Shown here: positions 15,514 to 22,716 of the stretch, one piece after another
How the letters are laid out: every line of letters begins with the position of its first letter
How positions within the stretch are numbered: position 1 is the stretch's first letter
DNA from: Cocleimonas sp.
GTDB taxonomy: Bacteria; Pseudomonadota; Gammaproteobacteria; Thiotrichales; Thiotrichaceae
Direction of reading: 5' to 3'
DNA: 37,643 nt
Assembly (NCBI GenBank): GCA_023146545.1
Contig: JAGLBW010000002.1
Coordinates: 1-37,643 of the forward strand
Position numbers and translations under genes: made by a program
The notes under the pieces: generated by a model
The model's database searches: none
What the model was told of the DNA's origin: nothing
Seen by the model: the letters and a program-made list of their open reading frames with translations, nothing else

Positions 15514-15529
15514 CATACCAACTGGTATG
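15514..15529. promoter_or_regulatory. TetR-type operator 1
   Basis: Perfect palindrome CATACCAACTGGTATG (7 + 2 + 7). Its centre is 30 bases, about three helical turns, from the centre of operator 2, so both sites face the same side of the DNA. It lies between the divergent yaiI and tetR starts and is a likely site for the regulator encoded at 15569. Confidence 0.7.
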
Positions 15530-15540
15530 ACGATAGTCTC

Positions 15541-15562
15541 CACCATACTGATCGGTATGGTG
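15541..15562. promoter_or_regulatory. TetR-type operator 2
   Basis: 22-base palindrome with outer arms CACCATAC/GTATGGTG (perfect 8 bp) and one mismatched inner pair. Its central 16 bases, CATACTGATCGGTATG (15544-15559), match operator 1 in both half-sites (CATAC/GTATG). It ends 6 bases before the regulator's ATG, so autoregulation is likely. Confidence 0.7.
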
Positions 15563-15568
15563 TTTTAA

Positions 15569-16234
15569 ATGAATTCAAATAAAAAAATAAAAGGTGAACC
15601 GTGGTGGCATTTGTGGAAGTGTCGCCGCTGTTCTGGGCAAGGGCGGGGGGAAGAGACGCGCCAGATATTATTACAAGCTGCTTTTGATGAAATTCATAAA
15701 GTGGGTTTTCAAGCGGCCAGTTTAAGTAAAATTTTAAAAGATACAGGGATTACTAAGGGAGCGTTGTATCATCATTTTAATAATAAATTAGAACTCGGTC
15801 ATGCCGTTTTAGATGAGGTCGTGTTAGTTTTCTTCGAGCAAGTTTGGCTTAAGCCATTAGAACAGACTGACGATCCTATTACGACGTTACAAGAGATTTT
15901 AAAGCGTTCTGGGGATGAAATGACTGAGGAAGATGCACGTTTAGGTTGTCCTCTTAATAATCTAGCACAAGAAATGTCACCCATTGATGAAGGTTTTAGG
16001 TCACGTACTGTCGCGATTTATGATGCTTGGCGAGAGGTTATCGAAGCGGCGTTGGAACGAGGAAAGCTTGCGGGTAATATTTGTGACGATACGGATGCAC
16101 GTCGTATTGCCATTTTATTTGTGGCGACCTTGGAAGGCTGTATGGGATTATCAAAAAGTACACAAAGTTTATCCCTGTTAATGGAGTGTGGGCAGGGTTT
16201 AATTGCACAGTTAGAGATGTTTCGAGAAAAATAA
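15569..16234 (+). CDS. TetR/AcrR-family transcriptional regulator
   Basis: This protein has 221 residues. The N-terminal helix-turn-helix is clear: RQILLQAAFDEIHKVGFQAA, SLSKILKDTGITKGALYHHF, NNKLELGHAVLDEV. The ligand/dimer part contains RLGCPLNNLAQEMSPIDEGF, typical of a TetR subgroup that responds to small organic or electrophilic compounds. Upstream of the HTH is an unusual 25-residue extension with WKCRRC, a possible thiol or metal site; no closer in-frame ATG exists. Two matching palindromes lie in the 60 bases before the gene. It is followed 30 bases later by the MMPL transporter, its probable target. Confidence 0.92.
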   Translation: MNSNKKIKGEPWWHLWKCRRCSGQGRGEETRQILLQAAFDEIHKVGFQAASLSKILKDTGITKGALYHHFNNKLELGHAVLDEVVLVFFEQVWLKPLEQTDDPITTLQEILKRSGDEMTEEDARLGCPLNNLAQEMSPIDEGFRSRTVAIYDAWREVIEAALERGKLAGNICDDTDARRIAILFVATLEGCMGLSKSTQSLSLLMECGQGLIAQLEMFREK

Positions 16235-16264
16235 TATTTTGAGTTAACAGTTTAAGGTAATTAG

Positions 16265-18574
16265 ATGATAGAACAATACGCAAAAACACTGATTAAGTGG
16301 CGTTGGGCGGTAATATTAGTGATGCTTTCCGTTGTGGTGCTAGCCGCATCAGGAGGGCGTTATCTGCACTTTAATAATGATTATCGTATCTTTTTTGATA
16401 GCAATGATAAGCGTTTAAAAGCCTTTGAAAATTTACAAAATACCTATACTAAAAATGACAATGTGCTGATTGCACTTGAACCTAAAAATGGTAATGTCTT
16501 TAGCAAGGAAACCTTAGCTGCGATTGAAGACATTACTCAGCGCGCATGGCAAACCCCTTACTCCTTACGGGTTGACTCACTCGCTAACTATCAGCATACC
16601 GAGTCGGTGGGTGATGATATGTCGGTTGCCAATTTGTATGAGGAGGCAACTACGCTGGACGATACCCAGTTAGCACGGATTAAAAAGATTGCCTTAAGTG
16701 AACCTTTGTTAGTGCATCGTTTGATTTCTGACAAAGGTCATATGGCAGCGGTTAATATTACCGTTGAGATTCCCACAAATGCTGATGTGACCGCGATTGG
16801 CCCTGAAATTGTTAAATCAGTGCGTGAATTAGAAACCTATATTAAGGACAAATACCCAACATTAAACGTATACCTTACGGGTATTGTCATGATGAATAAT
16901 GCTTTTGCTGAAGCATCGAAATATGACATGTCGCACCTTATTCCCTTAACATTTTTAATTATTTTAGTGGTTGTTTTCCTGCTATTGCGTAGTTTTAACG
17001 GAATTGTTGCGACGATGCTAGTGGTTGGTTTTTCGATTGCAACCGCGATGGGGTTAGCAGGTTGGATGGGAATTGAATTATCATCTCCGGTGATGTCAGC
17101 CCCTGTGATTATACTGACCTTGGCGGTGGCCGATTGTGTGCATATTTTATCCTCATGGATGCAACAAATGCGTAAAGGGGTTGATAAAAATGTCGCAATG
17201 GTCGAAAGCTTACGGATTAATTTCTCACCTATTTTCCTCACCTCAATTACGACCGCGATTGGTTTCTTATCGCTTAACTTCAGTGATGCACCGCCTTTTC
17301 GAGATTTAGGTAATATTGCTGCAATGGGTGTGATTGCGGCTTATCTTTTCTCGGTTACTTTTTTACCTGCACTCGCAACGGTATTGCCATCACGAGTTAA
17401 AGCAAAAGAATCTAAACCGATCGGTGCGGTAATGATGTCCTCTTTTGCAGAAGGCGTAATTCGTCATCAAAAAGCGTTGTTGATCGGGATGAGTACCTTT
17501 GCCTTGCTGTTAATTGCTTTGATCCCAACCAATCAATTGAATGATATTTATGTTGAATATTTTGATGAGCGAATACAGTTTCGTACCGATACTGATTATG
17601 TTGTCAAGAACATGACAGGCATTTATTTTGTTGATTACTCCTTAGATTCTAAAGTAGCAGGGGGTATTTCTGAGCCTAAAATATTATCCCAAATCAATCA
17701 ATTTACAACGTGGTTACGTTCTCAGCCTGAAGTGATTCATGTCAATAGTATTGATGACACGTTTAAGCGCTTGAATAAAAACATGCACGGGGATGATCAA
17801 AGCTGGTATCGCTTGCCCAGCAGTCGAGAGTTAGCGGCTCAATATTTATTATTGTATGAAATGTCATTACCGTATGGTTTAGATCTTAATAATCAAGTTG
17901 ATATTGATAAGAGAAGCACCCGTTTAAGTGTCACCATGAAAACTATTTCAACCAAGGCAGTGATAGGGTTTGAAAATCGGGTGGATCAATGGATGAAGAC
18001 CAATACACCTGATATTTACAGTGTCGGTGCGAGTCCAACGATTATGTTTGCTCATATTGGTATGAAAAATATTAAGAGCATGTTAATGGGAACAACAATT
18101 GCCTTACTGTTGATTTCTTTAATTCTTATTGTTGCATTAGGATCAGTACGTTACGGTATTTTAAGTTTAGCACCAAACCTTATTCCTGCGGGGATGGCCT
18201 TTGGTTTATGGGCGATTGTTGATGGTGAAATTGGGTTAGGTCTTTCCGTTGTTACTGCAATGACCTTGGGTATTGTGGTTGATGATACGATACATTTTCT
18301 AAGCAAATACATTCGGGCGCGTCGTGAGCAAGGTTTAACGGCTGAAGATGCAGTACGGTACGCCTTTTCAACCGTTGGTATTGCGTTATGGGTTACGTCA
18401 CTAGCATTAATTGCAGGCTTCCTCGTGTTATCGACCTCGTCGTTTAAATTAAACTCAGGTATGGGCTTGTTAACCTCAATCGTTATTAGCTTTGCCCTAC
18501 TTGCCGACTTTCTATTATTACCCCCGTTATTAATTAAGCTGGATAAGTGGTTAAGTGCTGGGGATAAAAAATAG
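16265..18574 (+). CDS. MMPL/RND-superfamily transporter
   Basis: This 769-residue inner-membrane protein has the RND layout: one span near the N-terminus (about 13-30), a large periplasmic loop, five spans, then a repeat of span, loop and five spans. Conserved membrane acidic motifs are visible: ILTLAVADCVHILSSWM in the first half and LGIVVDDTIHFLSKY in the second. The length and motifs fit the MMPL/HpnN-like group that exports lipids and other hydrophobic compounds, not the 1000-residue AcrB drug pumps. A good Shine-Dalgarno (AAGG) precedes the ATG. The downstream LolA-like protein and barrels support outward transfer to the outer membrane. Confidence 0.93.
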   Translation: MIEQYAKTLIKWRWAVILVMLSVVVLAASGGRYLHFNNDYRIFFDSNDKRLKAFENLQNTYTKNDNVLIALEPKNGNVFSKETLAAIEDITQRAWQTPYSLRVDSLANYQHTESVGDDMSVANLYEEATTLDDTQLARIKKIALSEPLLVHRLISDKGHMAAVNITVEIPTNADVTAIGPEIVKSVRELETYIKDKYPTLNVYLTGIVMMNNAFAEASKYDMSHLIPLTFLIILVVVFLLLRSFNGIVATMLVVGFSIATAMGLAGWMGIELSSPVMSAPVIILTLAVADCVHILSSWMQQMRKGVDKNVAMVESLRINFSPIFLTSITTAIGFLSLNFSDAPPFRDLGNIAAMGVIAAYLFSVTFLPALATVLPSRVKAKESKPIGAVMMSSFAEGVIRHQKALLIGMSTFALLLIALIPTNQLNDIYVEYFDERIQFRTDTDYVVKNMTGIYFVDYSLDSKVAGGISEPKILSQINQFTTWLRSQPEVIHVNSIDDTFKRLNKNMHGDDQSWYRLPSSRELAAQYLLLYEMSLPYGLDLNNQVDIDKRSTRLSVTMKTISTKAVIGFENRVDQWMKTNTPDIYSVGASPTIMFAHIGMKNIKSMLMGTTIALLLISLILIVALGSVRYGILSLAPNLIPAGMAFGLWAIVDGEIGLGLSVVTAMTLGIVVDDTIHFLSKYIRARREQGLTAEDAVRYAFSTVGIALWVTSLALIAGFLVLSTSSFKLNSGMGLLTSIVISFALLADFLLLPPLLIKLDKWLSAGDKK

Positions 18575-18607
18575 GTATTTGTAGTTTATCTAGTCAATAA
18601 AAAAGAG

Positions 18608-18646
18608 TGCTTTAGCTGCACGTTGTATGCTAAAGCAACTGTTTTT
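18608..18646 (+). terminator. candidate Rho-independent terminator after the MMPL gene
   Basis: Perfect 9-bp stem TGCTTTAGC/GCTAAAGCA (18608-18616, 18629-18637) with a 12-base loop, then ACTG and TTTTT. It would separate the tetR-MMPL transcript from the LolA-like gene, or act as a partial attenuator between them. Confidence 0.55.
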
Positions 18647-18798
18647 AAAAGCATCATTGATGTAAAAAATGAGCGCTTCACTATTAAAAATTAATAAGAT
18701 TAAATATTGTTGAAAAGTATAAATTGTTTTGCAATGAATCTCGTTTTTAGCGGTCTCATTGTGGATGTTTATGTCAAAATAAAATAAGGAAAAATAAA

Positions 18799-19575
18799 AT
18801 GATAAAGTATATTTTACCCGTTGCGATTGCATTATTTTCAGTCAATGTAATGGCAGAAACACCCGAAGAAAAAGGGTTTCGGATTGCAAAGGCTGCAGAA
18901 GCTTCTAATGATGGCTTTGGTGATAATACGGCTGATATGACCATGACGCTTAAAAATCGAGCGGGTCAATCCAGTGTACGTAAAATTCACAGTAAAGTAT
19001 TAGAAGTGAAAGGTGATGGGGATAAATCATTATCGTTATTCGATACCCCCGCAGATGTTAAAGGGACTTCCATGCTAACGTTCTCGCATGGGTTAAAAAC
19101 AGATGATCAATGGCTTTATTTACCTGCTTTAAAACGGGTTAAGCGTATTAGTTCACGTAATAAATCAGGGCCTTTTATGGGCAGTGAGTTTGCTTTTGAG
19201 GATTTAGGGTCTCAAGAGATTGAGAAATATAAATATAAATACCTACGTGAAGAAGCCTGCGGAAAAGGTTGGAAATGTCATGTGATTGAACGTACGCCAG
19301 CCTATAAATATTCGGGTTATACACGAATGATGAGCTGGATTGATACAAACGCCTATCGCTTGGTTAAAGTGGATTTTTATGATCGCAAAAACGCTAAAAT
19401 GAAAACGTTAGTATCAACAGGCTTTAAGCAATACCTAGGAAAGTATTGGCGACCAAATTTGATGAGTATGCAAAATCACTTAACAGGAAAAAGCACTACC
19501 TTACAATGGAGTAACTATAAGTTCCGTACAGGTTTAAGTCATCGTGATTTTAATAAGAACGCTTTAGCTCGATAG
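18799..19575 (+). CDS. LolA-like outer-membrane lipoprotein-sorting protein
   Basis: This 258-residue protein has a signal peptide (residues 1-19, ending VMAET) and is periplasmic. The family signature is intact: GFRIAKAAEASNDGFGDNTA, DMTMTLKNRAGQSSVRKIH, LSLFDTPADVKGTSMLTF, the WLYLPALKRVKRISSRNKSG stretch, and SEFAFEDLGSQEIEKYKYKY. Two Cys (EEACGKGWKCHV) could form a disulfide. These proteins have a LolA/LppX-type lipid-binding fold and are usually encoded next to an MMPL transporter, as here. It probably carries the hydrophobic cargo through the periplasm. Good Shine-Dalgarno (AAGGAAAA). The next gene starts 1 base after its stop. Confidence 0.9.
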   Translation: MIKYILPVAIALFSVNVMAETPEEKGFRIAKAAEASNDGFGDNTADMTMTLKNRAGQSSVRKIHSKVLEVKGDGDKSLSLFDTPADVKGTSMLTFSHGLKTDDQWLYLPALKRVKRISSRNKSGPFMGSEFAFEDLGSQEIEKYKYKYLREEACGKGWKCHVIERTPAYKYSGYTRMMSWIDTNAYRLVKVDFYDRKNAKMKTLVSTGFKQYLGKYWRPNLMSMQNHLTGKSTTLQWSNYKFRTGLSHRDFNKNALAR

Positions 19576-19576
19576 T

Positions 19577-19945
19577 ATGTTGTCCTCTCATGTTTTAGTT
19601 CACCTAATAGCGGCTTCCATTGCTTTGTTATTAGGTGCAGTTATTTTAATGTTACCAAAAGGTACGTTATGGCATAAGCGATTAGGACGCGTTTGGGCGG
19701 TTGCTTTGTTGGTGACGGCTATGGGGTCTTTTTGGATTCAAACTTCAGGACAATTTAGCCCTATTCATTTGTTATCCGTTGTGTCATTGATCAGTCTCTT
19801 TATAGCCCTTTATGCTATAAAGAGGGGCGATACAGTTACGCATCGTGGTGCAATGTTAGGGGGGTACATTGGTTTATGTGTTGCTTTTTTGTTTACGTTT
19901 ATTCCTGATCGTTTGGTCGGGCAATTTTTTTGGCGTTTATTTTAG
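19577..19945 (+). CDS. small four-span membrane protein (DUF2306-like)
   Basis: This protein has 122 residues, almost all in four predicted membrane spans: about 5-25, 36-54, 62-81 and 92-113. HLIAASIALLLGAVILMLPK with the following GTLWHKRLGRVWAVALLVTA, and the HRGAMLGGYIGLCVAFLFTF segment, match the DUF2306 group, with His and Arg at loop boundaries. Function is unknown. It starts one base after the LolA-like stop and is clearly in that operon. Confidence 0.78.
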   Translation: MLSSHVLVHLIAASIALLLGAVILMLPKGTLWHKRLGRVWAVALLVTAMGSFWIQTSGQFSPIHLLSVVSLISLFIALYAIKRGDTVTHRGAMLGGYIGLCVAFLFTFIPDRLVGQFFWRLF

Positions 19946-20219
19946 ATTCTGTCGATTTTTGATCAGGAGATAAAGGGATATGTGTCGACTTTTTAAATGC
20001 CCTCAAAAAATAAATTCTTTTATAAAATTAAGCTAAAATGTAATATTACCGTCATTAACCTAATGGAATGTGATTGAATCATTTAATTGCCTTCCTTTAG
20101 CTTTTTATCTACTTGTTTTTTCAGCTAAGAATTATTTTGACCCTTGTTCATCTGAATTTTTTGTGAAGCCTGTTAGATAAGTTTGTGCTTAAAAATAATC
20201 ATTAAAAAGAGACTCTTCT

Positions 20220-20816
20220 ATGAAAATACTTCCTTTACCTGCAATCAGTGCGTTGGTTTTATCCTGTTTTATGACAAACCTTCAAGCTAATGAAATTAAC
20301 TATGATTATGTTCAAGTTGGTTATTCGTATGTTAACGACTTGGATGTCAATGGCGGCTTAACAGCATCAGGGTCTTATGATCTTTATGATAATGTCAATG
20401 TCTTAGCCAATGCTTTTTTTAGTACAGGTAGTGATTCGGATACGGTCGATAGTGCAAAAGCGGTGACCTATACTTTGGGTGTGGGATACCACCTTACTAT
20501 TGCAGATGATACCGATCTTATTGGGGAAGTCAGTATGTTAAATACCCATAGTCAAGGAACAAAAAATGGGGTTACGGTTAAACAAAACGGTACAGGAACC
20601 GTGTTATCTTTTGGTGCTAAGCGACAATTTAGCGATAAATTAGAACTATTAGCACGCGTTGATAAACGCAATGGCAGTGATTTATCAGGTACGGTATTTA
20701 CCTTAGGCGTTGTCTATGAGTATAAAAAGAATTTAGCCTTTGTCGGTGACTTTAATACAGGAGCAGATAATGGCTCTGAATCCTTAACAGGATCGATACG
20801 TTGGGCGCTGGATTAG
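20220..20816 (+). CDS. small OmpA-like outer-membrane barrel
   Basis: This protein has 198 residues. The signal peptide is residues 1-23 (ending LQA). The mature part is a series of amphipathic strands separated by polar turns: YDYVQVGYSYVNDLDVNGGL, AVTYTLGVGYHLTIADDTDL, GTVLSFGAKRQFSDKLELLA, GTVFTLGVVYEYKKNLAFVG and a last strand SLTGSIRWALD. That is right for an 8-stranded barrel. It is preceded by a gap of about 270 bases without visible features and followed by a large hairpin. Its position inside the MMPL locus suggests a role in the same process. Confidence 0.75.
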   Translation: MKILPLPAISALVLSCFMTNLQANEINYDYVQVGYSYVNDLDVNGGLTASGSYDLYDNVNVLANAFFSTGSDSDTVDSAKAVTYTLGVGYHLTIADDTDLIGEVSMLNTHSQGTKNGVTVKQNGTGTVLSFGAKRQFSDKLELLARVDKRNGSDLSGTVFTLGVVYEYKKNLAFVGDFNTGADNGSESLTGSIRWALD

Positions 20817-20874
20817 AATTTACCTTTTTAAAGACAGATATTTAAGTGTTTACCCCTTAACGTTCCAATGGTGC

Positions 20875-20962
20875 TGTAGGATGTACTGAGCTAGGAAGCG
20901 CATCAAAAATGCTAACGAATGCATTTTCTAACATTAGTACATCCTACAATACTATTTTTTTT
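20875..20962. repeat. REP/MITE-like inverted repeat that ends in a T-tract
   Basis: Perfect 13-bp terminal inverted repeats TGTAGGATGTACT (20875-20887) and AGTACATCCTACA (20936-20948) enclose 48 bases containing GAGCTAGGAAGCGCATCAAA. An eight-T run follows at 20955-20962. The GTAGGATG...GCGCATCAAAAA wording resembles a family of dispersed non-coding repeats seen in many gammaproteobacteria. Here it may also terminate transcription of the barrel gene. Confidence 0.6.
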
Positions 20963-21073
20963 GAGAAATTATTGATGTCTGTTTTAGGCTGGAGAGGGTT
21001 CTAACAAAGCGATAAGGCGATCAGCAGTGTTGATACTTTTTTCATAATTGTTATTAAATTTTAGGAATAAATA

Positions 21074-21529
21074 ATGTTTAAACTTAAAATTCCACCCCCT
21101 GTTTATGCCTTAAGTATTGCAGGTCTGATGTGGTTATTAAATCAATATTTTCCCTTAGTGCATTGGCTTGAAGCGCCTTGGAACAGTATTGGATTGGTCT
21201 TGATGGGCTTGGCATTGGTTTTTGATCTCTGGTCTTTAGTACTGTTTTTTAAAGTAAAAACGACCCCTAACCCAATGAAACCCGAAAAAGTGAACGCCCT
21301 TGTGACTTCTGGCTTATATCAAGTAAGCCGTAATCCGATGTACGTGGGTTTGTTGGTCTTATTATTCGGTTTTTCATTATGGTTAGGTAGCGTGACACCT
21401 TTTTTGTTGTTGCCCCTGTTTGTTTTTTTGATAACAACACAGCAAATAAAGCCAGAAGAAGCCGTTTTAACGAAGGTATTTGGAAAAGAATACCTTGAAT
21501 ATAAAGCACAAGTTAGACGATGGTTATAA
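21074..21529 (+). CDS. isoprenylcysteine carboxyl methyltransferase / phospholipid methyltransferase-like membrane protein
   Basis: This protein has 151 residues and about four predicted membrane spans. The C-terminal half holds the family's cofactor-binding stretch: VTSGLYQVSRNPMYVGLLVL, then KPEEAVLTKVFGKEYLEYKA, where the RNPMY segment and the EE..L...FG..Y..Y pattern are diagnostic of the ICMT/PEMT fold. These enzymes use S-adenosylmethionine to methylate lipids or prenylated groups at the membrane. The true substrate is unknown; in this locus a lipid modification is plausible. Its TAA stop overlaps the ATG of the next gene. Confidence 0.87.
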   Translation: MFKLKIPPPVYALSIAGLMWLLNQYFPLVHWLEAPWNSIGLVLMGLALVFDLWSLVLFFKVKTTPNPMKPEKVNALVTSGLYQVSRNPMYVGLLVLLFGFSLWLGSVTPFLLLPLFVFLITTQQIKPEEAVLTKVFGKEYLEYKAQVRRWL

Positions 21530-22716
21530 TGAAAAACAAAATATTAACAAGCAGTTGTCTTGTACTCGGTTTGCTGTTGTCACTGACAGCGCAGGCCGGT
21601 GAATTTTCTGGAAATATAGGGCTTGAAGGGCGCTATTTTTTGGATGATGCGGCGTATACAGGACAAACAGCAGGAGGACTCGCTTTAAGTTTAGAGCCTG
21701 AGTATAAACACAAGTGGGATAATGATAATAATGTGTTTACTGTTAAAACATTTTCACGTTGGGATCAAAAAGATGATAAACGCAATCATCATGATATTCG
21801 CCAACTTGATTTAGTGATGGCAACGGGGGACTGGGAATTTCAAGCGGGGATTAGTCGCGTCTTTTGGGGGGTGACAGAATCACAACATCTGGTTGATATT
21901 ATTAATCAAACGGATGGTGCTGAGGGCACAGATGGCGAAGATAAACTGGGTCAGCCCTTATTCCGAGTGAGTCATATTCAAGAGAATGGAACGGTGAGTT
22001 TTTATCTCTTGCCTTATTTTCGGGAGCGTACCTTTGGTGGAAAAGCAGGGCGCTTTCGTGCCGCATTGCCTGTTGATACCAATAATGTCAGCTATGAATC
22101 AACGAAGAAAGAGAAGCATATTGATTATGCGGTACGCTTAACCCACACCTTTGATGCATTAGATGTTGGTTTAAGTTATTTTGATGGGACGGCTCGATCG
22201 CCACTATTTAAACCTGATTTGAGGAGTGGCGTTCTAAAACAACACTACCCCTTGATTAAACAAGTCGGGCTAGATTTACAATACACAGGGGAAGAATGGT
22301 TGTGGAAGCTTGAGACCATTAATCGTGAGGCAAAAAAAGAAAATTACACCGCCGCTGTGGGTGGATTTGAATACAGTTTTCCAGCGATTACCGAAAGCGG
22401 TTCAGATTTAGGGTTATTAGCGGAGTATCATCATGATTCACGCGGTGAAGTGCTTCAAGCTCAATTTCAAAACGACTTGTTCTTAGCGGCTAGAATGAGT
22501 TTAAATGATGCTGAAGGTACCGAATTTTTAGCGGGTACTTTCTTTGATTTAGATCATCAAACCAAAATATTTCGTATGGAAGCCAGCCGTCGAATAGGCA
22601 AGGGGTTGAAGCTTAATATCGAAGCACAAACCTTTATGGATGTAGATAAAAAGGATGCCTTAAGCAATGTAAAAAAAGATGGTTTTATTCAGATTGAATT
22701 GCAAAAATATTTTTAA
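21529..22716 (+). CDS. predicted outer-membrane barrel protein of the MMPL locus
   Basis: This protein has 395 residues, starting at the ATG at 21529, which overlaps the previous stop (TAATG); an ATG three codons upstream is less likely. The signal peptide is residues 1-23 (LLLSLTAQAGE). The mature part is rich in alternating strands with aromatic girdles (FTVKTFSRWDQKDD, WEFQAGISRVFWGVTESQ, VSFYLLPYFRERTFGG, LDVGLSYFDGTARSP). It ends IQIELQKYF, a classical C-terminal barrel strand with terminal Phe. The length suggests a porin-sized barrel. Such proteins often occur beside MMPL and LolA-like genes and may be the outer-membrane end of the route. Its stop overlaps the convergent mobB stop. Confidence 0.82.
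   Translation: MKNKILTSSCLVLGLLLSLTAQAGEFSGNIGLEGRYFLDDAAYTGQTAGGLALSLEPEYKHKWDNDNNVFTVKTFSRWDQKDDKRNHHDIRQLDLVMATGDWEFQAGISRVFWGVTESQHLVDIINQTDGAEGTDGEDKLGQPLFRVSHIQENGTVSFYLLPYFRERTFGGKAGRFRAALPVDTNNVSYESTKKEKHIDYAVRLTHTFDALDVGLSYFDGTARSPLFKPDLRSGVLKQHYPLIKQVGLDLQYTGEEWLWKLETINREAKKENYTAAVGGFEYSFPAITESGSDLGLLAEYHHDSRGEVLQAQFQNDLFLAARMSLNDAEGTEFLAGTFFDLDHQTKIFRMEASRRIGKGLKLNIEAQTFMDVDKKDALSNVKKDGFIQIELQKYF

Follow-up and report, generated by a model that had tools for sequence, protein, structure and literature searches.

A TetR-linked MMPL pump, LolA-like carrier and outer-membrane barrel form a conserved gammaproteobacterial core that probably exports a hydrophobic or amphiphilic compound

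The nearest described system to the locus analysed here is AmeABCD of Castellaniella defragrans, an exporter of apolar monoterpenes that comprises a DUF1302 barrel, a DUF1329 LolA-superfamily protein, AmeC (COG4447) and an HAE3 pump; when it is deleted, cells tolerate monoterpenes less well and accumulate more Nile Red (PMC6394551). A comparable DUF1302/DUF1329/MMPL set in Pseudomonas putida (PP_0765/PP_0766/PP_2018/PP_2019) is required on Tween 20, and its carrier has predicted contacts with both pump and barrel (PMC10866462). On C28 alkane, Thalassolituus oleivorans raises TOL_3187, in which MMPL and LolA-like parts are fused, 42-fold, and expresses the domain-less porin TOL_3188 exclusively under that condition (PMC6304351). 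We describe a locus of Cocleimonas sp. in a 37,643-nucleotide stretch of DNA, which we refer to as the window. Its core, consisting of an MMPL/RND pump, a LolA_like periplasmic carrier and a large outer-membrane barrel, is widespread and undescribed as a unit in the literature searched, where we found no paper on the MMPL/LolA_like/barrel set.

Like AmeABCD, the window system brings together an HAE3-like pump, a LolA-superfamily periplasmic protein and an outer-membrane barrel in one cassette, and the profile of its barrel meets DUF1302 in two intermediate sequences (L200 and L201). It differs from AmeABCD in its carrier, which belongs to PF17131 rather than full-length DUF1329, in its barrel, which has about 400 residues and no Pfam family as against 605 residues, and in its gene order and linkage to tetR. 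Because the COG4447 component is lacking (AmeC, YCF48-like, PF14870, is absent both from the locus and from the window genome, which is 90% complete), we do not file the window system as a member of AmeABCD; by analogy, it very likely works in the same way. The P. putida set likewise combines a barrel, a LolA-superfamily carrier and an MMPL pump, but is split over two loci, includes a fourth protein and uses DUF1302 and DUF1329 families. The T. oleivorans pair has its pump and carrier fused, whereas these are separate genes in the window; likened by layout alone, it matches a locus in another genome of our survey (G121), in which a fused MMPL–LolA-like gene is followed by the barrel.

The locus comprises seven open reading frames, all on one strand, in the order given in Table 1. 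An ORF check of the window found every one of them on the + strand at its stated coordinates; Pfam backs six of the seven assignments, and the exception, the 398-aa protein, is recognized as a barrel from its AlphaFold2 model. The assembly of this genome amounts to 2.4 Mb in 197 contigs, and Leucothrix records are among the named relatives in its family. That the genes form a one-strand run holds for their orientation, but the run is probably not a single transcript: a terminator-like hairpin follows the MMPL gene, and a dispersed repeat, whose T8 tail may mark a transcription end before the methyltransferase gene, stands between the small barrel and that gene, so that the run may comprise more than one transcript. 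The arm motif of this repeat, GTAGGATGTRCTGAG, occurs at least 8 times in the genome and 0 times in the reversed control. Rfam yielded zero matches in the window.

Table 1. Features of the locus, in window coordinates
Feature	Position	Strand	Evidence and remarks
Two 16-bp palindromes, CATACCAACTGGTATG and CATACTGATCGGTATG, candidate TetR operators	15514..15559	.	Spacing 30 bp
tetR, TetR repressor with LmrA/YxaF-like C-terminal domain	15569..16234	+	TetR_N 3e-11
MMPL/RND inner-membrane pump, HAE3-like, 769 aa	16265..18574	+	MMPL 1e-35
Terminator-like hairpin 3' of MMPL	18598-18647	+	-19.5 kcal/mol, z -3.1, T-rich tail
lolA, LolA_like periplasmic carrier	18799..19575	+	PF17131 1e-61; signal peptide in sequence
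DUF2306 small membrane protein	19577..19945	+	6e-15; starts 1 bp after lolA
Small beta-barrel, OMP_b-brl	20220..20816	+	2e-11
Dispersed palindromic repeat, REP/MITE-like, then T8	20867-20956	.	-37.5 kcal/mol, z -6.1
PEMT/ICMT-type membrane methyltransferase	21074..21529	+	PEMT 2e-14, ICMT 2e-5
Large outer-membrane barrel, 398 aa	21520..22716	+	AlphaFold2 model; LolA_like linkage

The pump matches the HAE3 model TIGR00921 over its full length (E 5e-47), scoring 160 bits where the cut-off is 352. It falls short of the equivalog scores both for the hopanoid transporter HpnN (TIGR03480, 91.5 versus 751.85 bits; NF052374, 61.7 versus 1100) and for BstA of the BstABC sterol transport system (NF045600, 23.8 versus 1400 bits). 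HpnN is also an HAE3/MMPL pump, with a weak partial match to the window pump, but functions without LolA-like or barrel partners. Among 34 homologues of the window pump, D673 and H677 are invariant, D674 is nearly so and D290 is D in 28; by analogy with what is established for RND pumps, these residues would constitute the proton path.

The carrier has the fold of the LolA superfamily and, besides its main family, passes the DUF1329 threshold (PF07044; 1e-8, 35.1 bits versus a cut-off of 23.1). Its model corresponds closely to the Vibrio parahaemolyticus structure 3bk5 (57% identity, TM 0.98 normalised by target), and also matches Porphyromonas gingivalis LolA3 (9tp6; TM 0.91, 32% identity) and the DUF1329 protein 4z48. 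It is not, however, a canonical LolA: Pfam gives only PF17131 and PF07044, TM to LolA structures is about 0.4-0.5, and the cassette is without LolCDE.

AlphaFold2 models the 398-aa protein with confidence as a beta-barrel of about 18-20 strands (pLDDT 91), and a signal peptide is visible in the sequence. Pfam gave no confident match and a sequence search of solved structures gave zero relatives, while Foldseek returned only general large barrels, for example OmpM1 and AlgE, at TM 0.5-0.6; identification from solved structures was therefore dropped. Direct comparison with DUF1302 by hhalign scored weakly (E 0.007, probability 5.6%). Despite this score, distant kinship with DUF1302 is probable, because both intermediates, encoded in other genomes beside MMPL and LolA_like, match the window barrel profile (1e-13 and 3e-11) as well as the DUF1302 profile PF06980 (1e-13 and 1e-11).

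We surveyed 369 gammaproteobacterial genomes and found the large barrel, which has no Pfam family, in 134, about one-third of the sample, and LolA_like in 175. For 105 of 125 strong barrel hits, a strong LolA_like gene lies on the same strand within 2 kb and always upstream; several of the exceptions to this linkage are at contig ends or have the genes on separate contigs. Strong LolA_like hits are also present in 113 of the 118 genomes with a strong barrel (Fisher p ~5e-86, uncorrected for genome relatedness). MMPL is directly upstream of the LolA_like–barrel pair in nearly all loci read. In G121 (L196 1327-4533) a single gene encodes MMPL and LolA_like as a 1068-aa protein, and the barrel gene comes next; such a fusion suggests that pump and carrier are in contact. 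The complete inner-to-outer route proposed in the first-pass annotation is thus supported by class-wide co-occurrence and adjacency of pump, carrier and barrel, together with the fusion. It is these three genes, and not all seven, that constitute the conserved core across the class.

The other members of the run are distributed differently. DUF2306 directly follows lolA, at 1-5 bp, in four of nine genus genomes and is elsewhere or absent in the others; as an accessory of the module, it is confined to the genus. The small barrel lies within the locus in five of the nine and at other sites in others. Labelled OmpA-like in the first-pass annotation, it has family matches to OMP_b-brl and, below the cut-off, OmpO/Ax21. 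Two genomes (G002 and G006) have the methyltransferase–barrel pair placed apart from tetR-MMPL-lolA-DUF2306. We regard DUF2306 and the small barrel as optional additions at the level of the genus. We rejected a single seven-gene system because no other genus genome read carries all seven genes together. Homologues of DUF2306 and the small barrel are scattered among relatives and those of the MMPL/LolA_like/large barrel core are not. The earlier reading had picked out a genuine core but stretched it two or three genes too far.

A TetR gene stands upstream of the module in 55 of 74 loci; the culturable relative Leucothrix arctica (L073), for example, has tetR, MMPL, LolA and the barrel. All aligned homologues of the window TetR except the most distant one have the GCP motif. 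The palindromes CATACCAACTGGTATG and CATACTGATCGGTATG lie 10-55 bp upstream of tetR (2 observed versus 0.01 expected in the window), and in the window candidate operators occur upstream of tetR only. Near the tetR start, the palindrome CATACCnnnnGGTATG was found at 21 of 31 loci with the window-type TetR, against 0 of the 24 whose regulator is of a second TetR type. A single candidate operator precedes lolA in another genome (G040, locus L035). In both genomes in which the methyltransferase–barrel pair is split from tetR, the same tandem pair of palindromes precedes the methyltransferase gene; for this reason we take the split loci as the best evidence that TetR would govern methyltransferase and barrel even where they are not linked to its gene. 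A wider regulon in the window genome was considered and dropped, since the two other operator matches are both inside coding sequence. As a separate observation, TetR bears an N-terminal WWHLWxC..C extension ahead of its DNA-binding domain (window 15569-15660; L038, L051, L054-L057), which is conserved throughout the genus and, in part, within the family.

Our preferred interpretation, which we consider probable, is that the locus encodes an exporter of three components, driven by ions and controlled by TetR, for a hydrophobic or amphiphilic compound. Cargo in the inner membrane would be raised by the MMPL pump to the periplasmic side of that membrane, the LolA_like carrier would hold it in a hydrophobic groove through the periplasm, and the large barrel would let it across the outer membrane or insert it there. 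TetR would bind paired CATACCnnnnGGTATG sites and so repress its own operon and the split-off units, being released by a ligand. Weighing against this reading are the possible division of the window genes among several transcripts, with candidate operators upstream of tetR only, and the want of a recurrent cargo gene beside the module. The cargo may be a lipid, as the first-pass annotation had it; the nearest tested system exports monoterpenes. Gene neighbours failed to identify the cargo: when the neighbours of 70 loci were clustered, the clusters comprised only the second TetR type, at 29 loci, and a few scattered families, none of them present at more than 6 loci, and no cargo or biosynthetic gene recurred beside the module. 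Scanned next to the window locus were DUF188, DUF6174, MobB and MobA proteins, with no aryl polyene-type ketosynthase or ACP genes among them.

The main rival has the same three-part route running inward, or otherwise supporting growth on alkanes, fatty acids or detergents, with the barrel admitting these substrates, the carrier handling them and the pump returning excess or building the path. Two of the analogues would also fit uptake, given that the P. putida set is required on Tween 20 (PMC10866462) and that the T. oleivorans response, the 42-fold rise of TOL_3187 and the exclusivity of TOL_3188, is to an alkane (PMC6304351); the occurrence in G121 of a fused pump-carrier with a window-type barrel favours this rival further. 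We nevertheless judge an inward route unlikely: the clustered loci show no recurrent neighbour for hydrocarbon degradation, and the phenotype of AmeABCD deletion is one of export. Those MMPL/RND pumps whose direction is known move their cargo outward.

Two other alternatives, the one improbable and the other possible though still on the unlikely side, involve the methyltransferase, whose RNPMY and EE motifs are intact in the alignment. The improbable one retains the methylated cargo of the first-pass annotation, with the enzyme methylating a lipid destined for the outer membrane by way of MMPL, LolA_like and barrel. In its favour, 19 of the 21 barrel-bearing genomes of the family have the methyltransferase gene immediately before the large barrel, in the window the barrel ATG at 21529 overlaps its stop codon (TAATG), candidate operators precede it in the split loci, and in two further families (L230 and L035) a PEMT-like gene lies inside the locus. 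Of the 15 genomes of the family with no barrel, however, 12 retain the methyltransferase, beside unrelated genes, and elsewhere in the class it does not adjoin the module. The enzyme thus does not establish a methylated cargo, as it persists in relatives that have no transporter; these orphan copies weaken it as proof, and it had been over-read. Neither substrate-giving equivalog was reached (NF040696, 31.5 versus 160 bits; LmtA, 31.6 versus 325). The methyltransferase tree follows genera, with 4 label changes needed, and on this pattern the orphan copies may be remnants left by transporter loss. The other alternative takes only MMPL, LolA_like and the large barrel as the system, and DUF2306, the small barrel and the methyltransferase as chance neighbours sharing nothing functional with it; it bears on the accessories alone and is compatible with a three-part exporter. 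The placement of DUF2306 and the small barrel apart from the module in relatives supports it, as does the dispersed repeat between small barrel and methyltransferase, whereas the shared operator of the methyltransferase, its overlap with the barrel, and the 1-5 bp spacing of DUF2306 behind lolA in four genomes argue against it. In our preferred interpretation, the methyltransferase is a family-level, probably co-regulated partner of the three-component exporter, with a substrate that need not equal the cargo.

Identifying the cargo would give a function to MMPL–LolA_like pairs, which are often annotated as 'outer membrane lipoprotein-sorting protein'. Such work would also test whether bacteria link a pump of the RND superfamily to a barrel by a carrier that diffuses between them, in contrast to the fixed tunnel of AcrAB-TolC-type pumps.

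Several loci of the survey vary the arrangement. At L199 (5786-7479), a tandem pair of LolA_like genes lies between MMPL and barrel. L230 (3501-9929), from another family, has tetR, a 262-aa protein, a PEMT-like gene, MMPL, LolA_like and barrel in one run, the 262-aa protein resembling a metallo-beta-lactamase-fold hydrolase. A record titled Aquificaceae (L071, QOAQ01000136.1) contains a locus 76-81% identical to the Leucothrix-like locus of the window; this record is probably mislabelled.
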